64,000 bases of DNA from Candidatus Nitrosocosmicus franklandus. Lineage in GTDB: Archaea; Thermoproteota; Nitrososphaeria; Nitrososphaerales; Nitrososphaeraceae. Where the stretch lies: positions 1,841,854-1,905,853 of the forward strand of contig NZ_LR216287.1 in NCBI RefSeq assembly GCF_900696045.1, read 5' to 3'. Under the pieces are notes generated by a model. The model saw nothing but the letters and a program-made list of their open reading frames with translations, was not told the DNA's origin and ran no database searches. A program made the position numbers and the translations under genes. Shown piece after piece: positions 24,409-30,050 of the stretch. Each line of letters begins with the position of its first letter. Position 1 is the stretch's first letter.

Positions 24409-25568
24409 TCATCTTTTATTTTTGTCTGTTAAATTCAAAAATGTTTTTACAATACTGGTAAAGGTTTCTGGATACTGGTACATCAATCCGTGTCCTGCAT
24501 CTTTAATTTGTACAAGCCACGATACAGGGATTTTGTCTATTAAAACTAATGAATTGTCAGCAGGAACAGCTTTGTCCTCCGTGCCTGTTATTATTAAAGT
24601 AGGTTCAGTCAATTTTTGAAGTTGATCACATACGCCTGTCCAGTTCTTTGAAAGCCAGCTTTCATTTATTTCAAACTGTTTCTTTAACGTAGTAGAAAGC
24701 ACCATTTCAGAAGACTTTGGTATTGCATCTAAAAAATTTTGGTTTCCTTAATCCATTTGATTGGAAATGTTACCTCTAGAAATGAATTTTCATCTTTGGT
24801 CTGATTGTTGACAAAATCCGAAAGTGCTTCCACAACTTGAGGACTTTGAGGAATGCCTTCTGGTCCACCACATGAAGCACCATATAATATGAGGCGATTT
24901 ACTTTTTCTGGATATGTTGTGACCAGTGTTTGCGCAACAAAAGAACCCATAGAGAAGCCTAGTACATCGATTTCTTGTAAATTCAAGGCACTCAAATGCT
25001 GCAGTGTTGTCAACGAATTGTCCAATGGAAAAAGGTTTTAATCCTGAAGTGGTGTTTCCTATTCCTCTGTTATCAAAGATGATCACTTTGTGACCGTTTG
25101 ATAATTCTTGTAGAAAGTGGGTAGACCATACATCCATTACATTGCCACTACCACTAATTAGTAATATAGGTGCTCCTTCGCCAATCTGTTTATATGCTAT
25201 ATTAATATCACCAACTCGTATCTTTTGCAATGGAATGTTATCTAGTATTGATAAGTTATGTTGAAAAGTTGACAATAAAGCAGTGCTTTGAGTTTGACTA
25301 TCGTCATTATCAGGTTTATCTGAAATAGAACTGTCTTTATTTATGCTGCTAATAGTGTCTGTAATAGTTTGGTAAACTTGATGCTTGTTGATTGAATGTT
25401 GCGATTCATTCTGATCTATTTGTTGTAATAGTTGACCAAAAGATGATGTTGAATAATCCAGATTGGTTTTTGGAATTGAAATTAATAAAATGCAGATTAG
25501 ACTTGTAATAACAACTAATGTAAAACCTAATTCATATGAGAATTTAGAGTGATTCGCACTTTGTTGGT
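24409..25568 (-). pseudogene. Broken copy of the secreted alpha/beta hydrolase
   Basis: Three frames joined give a protein parallel to the intact gene at 26394-27503: an N-terminal membrane segment (about 25480-25560), IRVGDINIAYKQIGEG, VIIFDNRGIGNTTSG, then (shifted near 25020) VLGFSMGSFVAQ, then (shifted near 24735) NQNFLDAIPKSSEMVL, and finally TGTEDKAVPADNS and DAGHGLMYQYPE. The nucleophile Ser, acid and His are all still encoded, but at least two frameshifts separate them and no start codon is evident. It looks like a recent duplicate now decaying. Confidence 0.85.
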
Positions 25569-26393: not shown

Positions 26394-27503
26394 TTATATT
26401 TTCATAGTCGACAAAAATGTGTTTATTACGTTACCCACTTCATCGGGATACTGATCTGGAACCGCATGGCCAGCATCTTTAATCTGTACAAGCCATGCAC
26501 CCGGAACTTTGCTTGCAATAACTAAAGAATTATCATGTGGCACATATAGGTTATCGTCTGTTCCCGTTATAACCAACAGGGGTTTGGCTACTTCTGCAAG
26601 ACCGTCACAGGCACCAGTCCAATCAGAAGTCATCCAAGTCTGTCCAGCGTTCATCTGATTGTTCATTGTTTCAGGAGAAAGACTGGGCTTCATTTGTTGA
26701 AATGTCATATTTGATGGAAGATCTAAAGATCCGGGATGTAGTTTTAGCCATCCTGGTCCTACTGATGCATTCACAAGTGCTTTCATTTCCTCCTGAGAGA
26801 TCGGTATGTTATTTAGAGATTTGTTTACAACACCTGCTTGCAAGTCGTCAAACCATGCTGGACGTGGTACAGTATCTTTACCGCCACAGGACCCAGCAAT
26901 AAGTATAAAGCTACTAACCTTTTCGGGATACGAAATTGCAAATTGTTGGACTACGAACGTACTCAAAGAAAATCCAAGAATGCTTGCCTGTTGTATTTCA
27001 AGAGCATCCATTAAACCTGCAGTATCGTTAGCAAGTAACTGTATGGAATATGGTTCGGTACCTCCTGTAGTATTTCCTATACCGCGGCCATCAAACACAA
27101 TTACTGTGTTATTTGAAGCTAGTTTGGTTAAAAGGGATGGATCCCATGCGTCCATACCATCCGAAGCACCATTGTGAAGTATTAGAGGCTCTCCATTACC
27201 AAACACCTTGTATGCAATTTCAATATCTCCTACTTGAACTTTTTCTAACGGGATATCCTCTAAGTTTACCAAATTCGTAACAGTAGCATTTGTCGAATTG
27301 ACTAGGTCGGAACCTATCTGTCCATACCCAATATTAGTGACACTATTGTGACCAAAGTTGTAAATTGTCGAGGTCAAGAAGATTAAGACCGATACAAATC
27401 CTATAATGAAAAGATGATCTTTTCTCATCTGTATAATGTTATACATCATCACACTTACTCGACGGGATATATAAACGACCTGCATGTAGCTTATTATATT
27501 CAA
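26394..27503 (-). CDS. Secreted or membrane-anchored alpha/beta hydrolase
   Basis: Up to 369 residues; the start is probably Met26 (27428), just before the membrane segment HLFIIGFVSVLIFLTS. The alpha/beta-hydrolase elements are all present: VFDGRGIGNTTGG (oxyanion region), nucleophile Ser179 in ILGFSLSTF, acid Asp316/317 in TGTDDNLYVP, and His346 in DAGHAVPDQYP. Sequence between 205 and 290 forms a cap with several sequons. Substrate unknown; the family includes esterases and haloperoxidase-like enzymes. A decayed duplicate lies directly downstream. Probably extracytoplasmic. Confidence 0.85.
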   Translation of the reverse strand: MNIISYMQVVYISRRVSVMMYNIIQMRKDHLFIIGFVSVLIFLTSTIYNFGHNSVTNIGYGQIGSDLVNSTNATVTNLVNLEDIPLEKVQVGDIEIAYKVFGNGEPLILHNGASDGMDAWDPSLLTKLASNNTVIVFDGRGIGNTTGGTEPYSIQLLANDTAGLMDALEIQQASILGFSLSTFVVQQFAISYPEKVSSFILIAGSCGGKDTVPRPAWFDDLQAGVVNKSLNNIPISQEEMKALVNASVGPGWLKLHPGSLDLPSNMTFQQMKPSLSPETMNNQMNAGQTWMTSDWTGACDGLAEVAKPLLVITGTDDNLYVPHDNSLVIASKVPGAWLVQIKDAGHAVPDQYPDEVGNVINTFLSTMKI

Positions 27504-28019: not shown

Positions 28020-28679
28020 TTAACTTAAGATTAATTTATGAATATTTTCTTTGGTCAAATGCAATTTGTATATCTGGTCATTAGTTAAAACAAAAACTTG
28101 ATCGTGTACATTAAACATTTCTAGCATATCAATTATGGGCATTTTAGTGAGATTTCCCATTTCATAAGCACAAAATACTAAACCTTGTAGTCTATTTTTA
28201 TCATACTCTTTTTCAAGATAACTTGCTTCTCTAACTGAGTAGTTTGCTATATCATTGATGAGAAAATCAACTAGACATAATTGTTTGTTGTTCGCATTTT
28301 GAGATACATTCTGTAGTATTTTGAAGATGTATTTTTTTACATCTTTTTGTTTAGTATCATATAGTTGAGTTGTGCCATCAAACCATTCCATTTTTCTCAA
28401 TAATTCTGTAATGGAAGGATCGGAAGAAGGGACAAAACATCTAAACCAATTTTGTTCTTTTGTTAGATAATCTAAGGATTTAATCAAATGCCTTATGGTA
28501 TCTGCATTATCGTATAGAAGAAGGTGATGACGTTTAGGTATCTCTTTTTGCTGTTTTAACCACTGGTCTACTGCATCCTTTATAATCGAGTTAATTGAAA
28601 CCCCTTTTTGCTTAGATAAATCTCTTAATTCAGAGTGCGTATTGTCATCAAAGCCGCGGATGACTAAATTATGAGGCAT
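28020..28679 (-). CDS. Ribbon-helix-helix regulator fused to a MEDS-like domain
   Basis: About 219 residues from ATG 28679; a TTG one codon upstream is also in frame. The N-terminus (PHNLVIRGFDDNTHSELRDL, then GVSINSIIKDAVDQWL) is a ribbon-helix-helix DNA-binding domain of the Arc/FitA type. The rest (HHLLLYDNADTIRHLIKSLD, NWFRCFVP, ..., GLVFCAYEMGNL, DMLEMFNVHDQVFVL) resembles MEDS/DcmR sensory domains. It is transcribed divergently from the methyltransferase at 28731. A 30-bp palindrome between them is the obvious operator, so autoregulation and control of the neighbour are likely. Such a fusion would couple a sensed ligand to DNA binding. Confidence 0.75.
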   Translation of the reverse strand: MPHNLVIRGFDDNTHSELRDLSKQKGVSINSIIKDAVDQWLKQQKEIPKRHHLLLYDNADTIRHLIKSLDYLTKEQNWFRCFVPSSDPSITELLRKMEWFDGTTQLYDTKQKDVKKYIFKILQNVSQNANNKQLCLVDFLINDIANYSVREASYLEKEYDKNRLQGLVFCAYEMGNLTKMPIIDMLEMFNVHDQVFVLTNDQIYKLHLTKENIHKLILS

Positions 28680-28702
28680 CAATCTAATGAGTAGGGAGCA
28701 TT

Positions 28703-28732
28703 ATATAAATGATATCGTGATATCATTTATAT
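28703..28732. promoter_or_regulatory. 30-bp palindromic operator with TATA box
   Basis: Perfect inverted repeat, arms of 14 bp (ATATAAATGATATC and GATATCATTTATAT) around a central GT. The segment TTATATAAAT (28701-28710) is a TATA box about 25 nt from both start codons, 28679 on the minus and 28731 on the plus strand, so both transcripts should be leaderless. Binding by a dimer-of-dimers repressor would block both. Confidence 0.75.
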
Positions 28733-29573
28733 GGAAATACAAAACCAGTCAAGCAAAACAATGGATATAAAATCCAGTAATACACAGGAAAAAACAAGAA
28801 TTGCAAATGTGTGGACACCAGGAGATTACCAGAGTGTGTCTACAATGCTTCTACAAATTTCTTCACATCTAGTCAAACTACTAAATATTCAACCTGGAGA
28901 ATCTGTTTTGGATGTGGCATGCGGGAATGGTAATACTGCCATTACCGCTCAAAGATGCGGTGCTAACGTAACTGGTATTGATATCACTTTCGAACTTTTG
29001 AATCTTGCAAGGGAAGAAGAAAGAATTGCTCAAATTAGTGGGATAGATTGGAGAGAAGGGGATACACAAGCCTTACCATTTGAAGATGAATCATTTGACG
29101 TTGTTTTGTCCACATTTGGACATATGTTTGCAATCGACCCCGACCTTACTACTAAAGAATTAATAAGAGTCACAAAGAAAGGCGGTAGGATAGGATTTGC
29201 AACTTGGCCGCCAGAGCTTGCTATAGGGTCGATATTCAAAGTAATCAGAAAACACATGCCAGTAAACTCGAATGCCCCTCCCTCTCCTATGCTTTGGGGA
29301 GATCCAGATGTAGTAACAGATCGTCTATCAGGGGTTAGAGAACTATCATTCGAAAGAGGTACAACAATCTTTCCTATACTTAGTTCAAATCACTATTGGA
29401 AGTTTATGAGTACAAAATACGGACCCTTGATAAAAGCAATTGAAGTCCTGAATAGTATATCTGATGTTCGTGAACCAGAGTCACTTAGAACTGACTTTAT
29501 AAAAACTATAGATCCATATATCATAGATAATGGTTTGCGATTGGGATATTTACTAACAGTAGCTATTAAATAA
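28731..29573 (+). CDS. SAM-dependent methyltransferase (class I)
   Basis: 280 residues. Motif I VLDVACGNGNTAI (residues 59-71), acidic residue in VTGIDITFELL, motif around GDTQALPFEDESFDVVLSTFG, then RVTKKGGRIGFATWPP. It is of the UbiE/small-molecule type (Methyltransf_11-like), with a C-terminal region involved in substrate choice. Its ATG abuts the palindrome, so the mRNA is probably leaderless and repressed by the divergent regulator. The secreted-protein gene at 29595 follows after 21 bp and may be cotranscribed. Substrate unknown. Confidence 0.85.
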   Translation: MEIQNQSSKTMDIKSSNTQEKTRIANVWTPGDYQSVSTMLLQISSHLVKLLNIQPGESVLDVACGNGNTAITAQRCGANVTGIDITFELLNLAREEERIAQISGIDWREGDTQALPFEDESFDVVLSTFGHMFAIDPDLTTKELIRVTKKGGRIGFATWPPELAIGSIFKVIRKHMPVNSNAPPSPMLWGDPDVVTDRLSGVRELSFERGTTIFPILSSNHYWKFMSTKYGPLIKAIEVLNSISDVREPESLRTDFIKTIDPYIIDNGLRLGYLLTVAIK

Positions 29574-29594: not shown

Positions 29595-30050
29595 TTGAAA
29601 ATTCAACATAATAAATCAAAATCAATTCTCTTATTAACTACGTTATTATTTGGTTTTACTCTAGTATTAATGATACCTATATCTGATACTGTGTTAGCGA
29701 AACCCAATTTTGGCGGAAGCACATTAGGGAAAGGATGTTCATCTCTTTGGGATGATGTTATGAAACTGAGAGCTAAAAAAGCAGCCCAAGGGGATAATTT
29801 AAACCAAAAAGATGCAAGTGATTTAGGAAATGCAGAAGCCAATTATAAGAGTTTATGTGCTGGGATATTTGGTCCATTACCTCGTGAAGTACCTGTTGCT
29901 CCAAAAGTTCCAACAAGAGAAGAAAATGCTCTTGAAGATAAACCATATGAACAAAGTAACGTTCCAGGGCATGTTATAACTGATGGACCTCAAGAACAAA
30001 ACGAGCAGATCCAAAAATCAGGATGCAATATAGGATGGGGAATATGTTAA
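29595..30050 (+). CDS. Secreted protein, paralogue of the one at 44.9 kb
   Basis: 151 residues from a TTG start (TTGAAAATT), preceded by a purine-rich GGGAGAAGAAG. The signal peptide ends near VLAKPNF. The conserved core reads GGSTLGKGCSSLWDDVMKLRA...ASDLGNAEANYKSLCAGIFGPLP, with two cysteines likely disulfide-bonded, and two more at the end (SGCNIGWGIC). The protein at 44901-45485 has the same core with a different tail. Family unknown, seemingly lineage-specific. It is 21 bp behind the methyltransferase gene. Confidence 0.75.
   Translation: MKIQHNKSKSILLLTTLLFGFTLVLMIPISDTVLAKPNFGGSTLGKGCSSLWDDVMKLRAKKAAQGDNLNQKDASDLGNAEANYKSLCAGIFGPLPREVPVAPKVPTREENALEDKPYEQSNVPGHVITDGPQEQNEQIQKSGCNIGWGIC

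Follow-up and report, generated by a model that had tools for sequence, protein, structure and literature searches.

Organization of the locus

The 64-kb stretch of DNA analysed here (the window), from a soil ammonia-oxidising archaeon, contains a predicted transcriptional regulator gene and a methyltransferase gene that diverge from a 51-bp spacer (28680-28730) (Table 1). The regulator start was assigned to the ATG at 28679 because homologues align from that codon, one codon after the TTG at 28682 given by the ORF tool.

The spacer is dominated by a perfect inverted repeat whose 14-nt arms are 100% complementary around a 2-nt centre, and which extends into the AT of the methyltransferase ATG. 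The first-pass annotation had described this 30-bp palindrome, which was confirmed. No other perfect inverted repeat (gap ≤10) in the window is as long, and this one occurs there once. The longest arm never exceeded 12 nt in 12 first-order Markov simulations of 64 kb, and 100 shuffles gave 0 matches to the palindrome at ≤3 mismatches. The 16-bp operator core at its center is the sole perfect copy in its own 2.84-Mb single-contig genome.

The symmetric element TTATATAA is centred at distances of 25.5 nt (regulator) and 26.5 nt (methyltransferase) from the two ATG codons. Such TATA-to-start spacing is that expected of leaderless archaeal transcripts, and judged by sequence, the position of TTATATAA is compatible with leaderless promoters in both directions. 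Sharing of one TATA box by both start codons at about 25 nt, as first proposed, is possible for an element placed midway between them, but the usual layout in relatives has two TATA elements.

Two further features of the window were noted. A small exported protein is encoded at 29595-30050 (+), starting ~20 bp past the methyltransferase; the two may be co-transcribed, since a similar gene also follows the methyltransferase at locus L007. On the other side, an alpha/beta hydrolase gene at 24729-25275 (-) is split into two overlapping frames, as if frameshifted, and a full-length relative lies at 26394-27503 (-).

Table 1. Coordinates of genes and predicted regulatory features, numbered as in the window
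Feature	Position	Strand	Basis or remark
Regulator, 219 aa	28020..28679	-	ORF and homologues; residues 1-45 ribbon-helix-helix, 46-219 KaiC/MEDS-like without P-loop
Ribbon-helix-helix domain	28545..28679	-	Pfam ParG/FitA-like RHH, modelled helices, PDB sequence match
MEDS-like / inactive-KaiC-like putative sensor domain	28020..28544	-	Profile comparison, fold, conserved residues
Predicted operator core TGATATCGTGATATCA, two adjoining 8-bp boxes	28710..28725	.	16-bp motif recurs upstream of nearly all homologues
Perfect palindrome, 30 bp (operator core plus symmetric TATA-like flanks)	28703..28732	.	Flanks vary in relatives
Symmetric TATA element TTATATAA, proposed common to both genes	28701..28708	.	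Sequence; aligns with the methyltransferase-side TATA of relatives
Methyltransferase, 280 aa, class I SAM-dependent (UbiE-like), proposed controlled gene	28731..29573	+	Pfam Methyltransf_11, E=3e-21

Domain architecture of the regulator

The N-terminal head of the regulator family resembles ribbon-helix-helix (RHH) proteins. Pfam profiles gave weak matches to ParG in 23 of 27 members and to FitA-like RHH in 21 of 27, with E-values down to 2.7e-6; the matches of the window regulator itself fall under the curated cut-offs. A PDB sequence match pairs the head with ParG (1p94, E=0.0037). Helices are predicted at residues 12-25 and 29-45, and the preceding strand, low-confidence in the monomer model, comprises residues 2-7 (PHNLVI), the expected DNA-reading residues. 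The family thus displays a strand and two helices with RHH profile similarity, a feature of the ribbon-helix-helix (MetJ/Arc) superfamily. Additional Pfam matches, to ribosomal L22 and an iron-traffic family, were sub-threshold and were discarded as noise.

The C-terminal domain was left without identification by Pfam, NCBIfam, and PDB sequence searches. Its model (residues 44-216, mean pLDDT 81) shows a KaiC/RecA-like fold, with Z-scores of 11-13 to KaiC and RecA-like chains. The P-loop is absent, as the regulator sequence contains no GxxxxGK[ST]. MEDS has been described as an inactivated KaiC-type domain (PMC5847659). Pfam MEDS (PF14417) matched 0 of 27 members at E 0.1, though the same genomes encode many true MEDS proteins. 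With hhalign and a MEDS profile built from 28 domains of the same archaea, we obtained E=4.8e-6 and a probability of 86% over columns 50-192, while all controls (20 column shuffles, the reversed profile, and five other families) gave E 0.0075 or worse. Furthermore, H51, E156, and C170, which are conserved among regulator homologues, match H1, E124, and C139 of MEDS.

At the level of profile comparison, "MEDS-like" is therefore right as a remote relation and not as formal membership. The RHH/MEDS-like fusion of the first-pass annotation stands in this qualified form, with an RHH head and a remote MEDS relation, and with no Pfam MEDS match among the 27 homologues. The domain is likely a sensor for a small molecule. 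MEDS/DcmR domains are predicted to sense simple hydrocarbon derivatives, with epoxyethane suggested (PMC11507031, citing Anantharaman and Aravind 2005).

Distribution of the regulator and conservation of the operator

Of 101 relatives, 37 encode a homologue of the regulator; across the order, such homologues occur in 70 of 400 genomes, representing 21 of 66 genera. No full-length homologue was found elsewhere in a phylum-wide sample; within the genomes searched, only ammonia-oxidising archaea and their close relatives have the family. At G006:C1:2962143-2962367, the remains of a regulator gene, interrupted by stop codons, adjoin the methyltransferase orthologue of that species.

We surveyed the upstream DNA of 69 distinct regulator homologues for operators. 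The common motif is a 16-bp site of two 8-bp boxes (TGATATC-type), usually present twice, 36-39 bp apart. The first-pass annotation had held that homologues without a conserved palindrome upstream would speak against its proposal; the survey did not refute it, as 63 of the 69 upstream regions beat the 99.9th percentile of dinucleotide-shuffled DNA for a double operator, in varied sequence versions and with the 36-39 bp spacing in nearly all. The scoring function, applied identically to real and shuffled DNA, was written with the motif already known, and we therefore complemented it with an exact pattern. In the 400 genomes, GATATC-NN-GATATCA followed, after a gap, by TGATATC-NN-GATATC occurs at 11 places, one per genome, and each place lies 32-38 bp away from a regulator match. 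The reversed control pattern gave 0.

Six of the 69 regulators miss the double-site threshold, including that of the window. Of the others, L012 likewise retains a single good site; no recognisable site is present at L044, L106, or L118. One Nitrosopumilaceae locus (L105, genome G068) carries three operator-like sites in series upstream instead of two.

The operator is rare outside these loci. Genomes of the genus (2-3.6 Mb) contain 0-4 perfect single sites each, mostly at the regulator locus, and a search of these genomes for a wider regulon found none. Near-matches in the window's own genome (59585, 249361, 1722309, and 2199714) were rejected as targets, being single sites with no clear core-promoter position.

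That the palindrome is the regulator's operator is a strongly supported prediction. The regulatory site first read from it is conserved upstream of homologues, but the conserved unit is the 16-bp operator of two 8-bp boxes; compared with relatives, the outer ends of the 30-mer are TATA-like flanks, not conserved operator.

Operator variants and candidate DNA-reading residues

Operators occur in clade-specific versions (TGATATC, TGCTATC/TGCTAGC, TGGTACC, TGCAAGC, and AGATATC), and the two sites of one locus usually vary in step between clades. In one clade, comprising L112, L113, and L114, the site nearer the regulator repeats the box in direct orientation, TGCAAGCA-TGCAAGCA, instead of inverted, which indicates that the operator unit is the 8-bp box and not the 16- or 30-bp dyad. 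Two adjoining 8-bp boxes per operator, found at 63 of 69 loci, provide the repeated short palindromic subsites that are a further feature of the RHH superfamily.

Alternate residues of a ribbon-helix-helix strand are expected to face the DNA. In the regulator family, when 218 columns are ranked by their association with operator class, strand position 4 comes 11th and position 6 comes 2nd; positions 2, 3, 5, 7, and 8 rank low. Columns elsewhere in the regulator rank as high, and ancestry confounds the association, so the covariation is only suggestive of residues 4 and 6 reading the DNA boxes.

Promoter geometry

In relatives, the operator on the partner side separates the partner TATA from the partner start codon, and that on the regulator side lies directly upstream of the regulator TATA. 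Bound at either position, the regulator would be expected to impede the basal machinery. The single operator of the window takes up both relations at once. It is located between the TATA element and the methyltransferase start, over the start-site region, and toward the regulator gene it directly adjoins that TATA on its upstream (BRE) flank.

An alignment of seven Nitrosocosmicus spacers showed that the window retains the methyltransferase-side operator and TATA and is without the ~40 bp, about one operator period, that hold the second operator and second TATA. In the tree, the window regulator is nested in a clade whose other members carry two operators, and the single-operator form is therefore taken to be derived. 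We infer that the one-operator, one-TATA layout is a collapsed form, which would have arisen by loss of ~40 bp (one operator period), possibly through recombination between the repeated operators.

Partner genes and an apparent second copy of the proposed switch

Seven further regulator loci in Nitrosocosmicus (L002, L003, L039-L042, and L065) also have a UbiE-like methyltransferase as divergent partner, and a homologue of the window methyltransferase at L007 has the identical 280-aa length and start. Across the family, the divergent partners are OsmC-like proteins (22-23), winged-helix proteins (10), methylated-DNA cysteine methyltransferases (OGT/MGMT) with the catalytic PCHR motif (8-9), UbiE-like methyltransferases (8, all Nitrosocosmicus, window included), alpha/beta hydrolases closest to haloalkane dehalogenases (4), and a second methyltransferase type (4). 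The remaining partners are single or of no recognised family. The regulator-methyltransferase module proposed at the outset thus holds at the window locus, but relatives often carry a partner of another kind.

On the tree, loci with the same partner type group together (16 changes, where shuffling predicts 39), indicating that partners were exchanged several times. Methyltransferase homologues are present also in genomes that lack the regulator, so the enzyme does not depend on it; its solved relatives are generic class I enzymes. No toxin family was found among the partners scanned, and no methionine gene among those examined. The partners resemble chemical-damage defences, and one might guess at a common "reactive chemical" theme; we word it as a guess because the partner classes are diverse, with ten winged-helix proteins and some of no recognised family.

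The genome encodes a regulator paralogue at a second locus (L038, 2262-4247; 2.23 Mb in the window's own genome), with an OsmC gene divergent and a 158-aa gene downstream. Operators of the TGCTA[T/G]C type precede the OsmC gene, the paralogue itself, and the 158-aa gene, the last having its own double operator with sites 37 bp apart. From their operators, the window locus and L038 are apparently two insulated copies of one switch.

Proposed mechanism and alternatives

We propose that the regulator acts at the conserved operator as a one-component autorepressor that also controls the divergent gene, and assign this reading a probability of roughly 80%. Repression of the regulator and methyltransferase genes is strongly inferred. 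Judging from the protein family and operator conservation, ribbon-helix-helix dimers would occupy the two 8-bp boxes of the 16-bp operator. The geometry suggests that regulator bound there would keep TFB/TBP or RNA polymerase from both promoters, as the operator covers the methyltransferase start-site region and abuts the BRE side of the TATA. A small molecule that binds to or reacts with the MEDS-like domain would then weaken the grip on DNA, inducing both genes. The most plausible ligand, at a guess from the partner genes of relatives and the MEDS literature, would be a reactive or alkylating organic compound. This ligand part is much less certain than the autorepressor-plus-operator part.

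A wider hypothesis, which we offer only tentatively, is an order-wide chemical-stress switch. Here, sensing of reactive organics (alkylating, halogenated, or epoxide-like compounds, such as a by-product of co-oxidation by ammonia monooxygenase) would induce a local defence gene encoding OsmC, a DNA alkyl-repair protein, a dehalogenase-like hydrolase, or a methyltransferase, and residues 4 and 6 would form a recognition code for the 8-bp boxes.

The same repressor and operator could instead serve MetJ-like end-product control, in which the ligand of the C-terminal domain would not be a toxic compound but a metabolite of the partner enzyme, such as SAM, SAH, or the methyl acceptor. We consider this unlikely. 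The window partner is a SAM-dependent methyltransferase, two methyltransferase types occur among Nitrosocosmicus partners, and two adjoining 8-bp boxes resemble the MetJ layout, but most partners in the family (OsmC, MGMT, hydrolase, and winged-helix proteins) are not SAM enzymes, and the sensor domain is MEDS/KaiC-like, unlike MetJ.

It is less probable still that the regulator activates the methyltransferase gene or acts oppositely in the two directions. Archaeal activators that recruit TFB/TBP also use positions upstream of TATA, which is where the regulator-side operator lies; however, the partner-side operator, both in the window and in relatives, separates TATA from the start codon and covers the start-site region, as expected of a repressor.

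We give very little weight to the operator belonging to a separate global regulator, with the ribbon-helix-helix gene merely one of its targets. A plain target would likewise carry the operator at its own promoter, yet every double operator detected in 400 genomes neighbours this regulator gene, and members of the genus without the regulator have 0 double sites and 0-1 single sites. Operator type also tracks the regulator clade, and two paralogues of one genome differ in their operators.

Finally, although the palindrome is an AT-rich perfect inverted repeat, its reading as an RNA or DNA hairpin (attenuator, terminator) or as a chance repeat can be set aside in view of its position and clade-specific sequence, which are conserved and covary across the order, the direct-repeat sites of the 8-bp box, which a hairpin does not explain, an arm length above the simulated maximum, and its location upstream of the inferred leaderless start sites.

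The regulator family and its predicted operator are legible in the sequences of dozens of species, and both vary naturally, so that binding rules are immediately testable in vitro. Should the sensor prove responsive to reactive organics, it would reveal how globally important nitrifiers handle chemical damage and could supply an inducible promoter for genetic tools.

Comparison with known systems

RHH repressors and MEDS sensors are both known from other systems, as is divergent autoregulation. For their combination, we found no description of an RHH/MEDS-like fusion, its operators, or its distribution in the open-access literature.

MetJ-type repressors bind as RHH dimers to tandem, roughly palindromic 8-bp boxes and repress nearby genes as one-component systems. 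The regulator, as deduced from its sequence, shares the adjoining 8-bp boxes and the one-component repressor design. It differs in having no detectable MetJ homology past the RHH fold, in the boxes themselves, in carrying a MEDS/KaiC-like C-terminal domain in place of the MetJ body, and in that its examined partners include no methionine-biosynthesis gene.

ParG and FitA-like autoregulators have a similar head domain and an autoregulatory operator, which is predicted here. In contrast to these systems, no ParF-type ATPase or toxin partner was found beside the regulator, and its C-terminal domain is large and sensor-like.

With DcmR and other MEDS regulators (PF14417; PMC11507031, PMC5847659), the regulator shares a DNA-binding head joined to a MEDS-type sensor domain beside an enzyme gene whose control is predicted here, as well as the conserved H, E, and C positions and the inactive-KaiC fold. 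However, its domain is too diverged to score with Pfam MEDS, it is found only in ammonia-oxidising archaea and close relatives among the genomes searched, and its head is ribbon-helix-helix, whereas theirs is helix-turn-helix.
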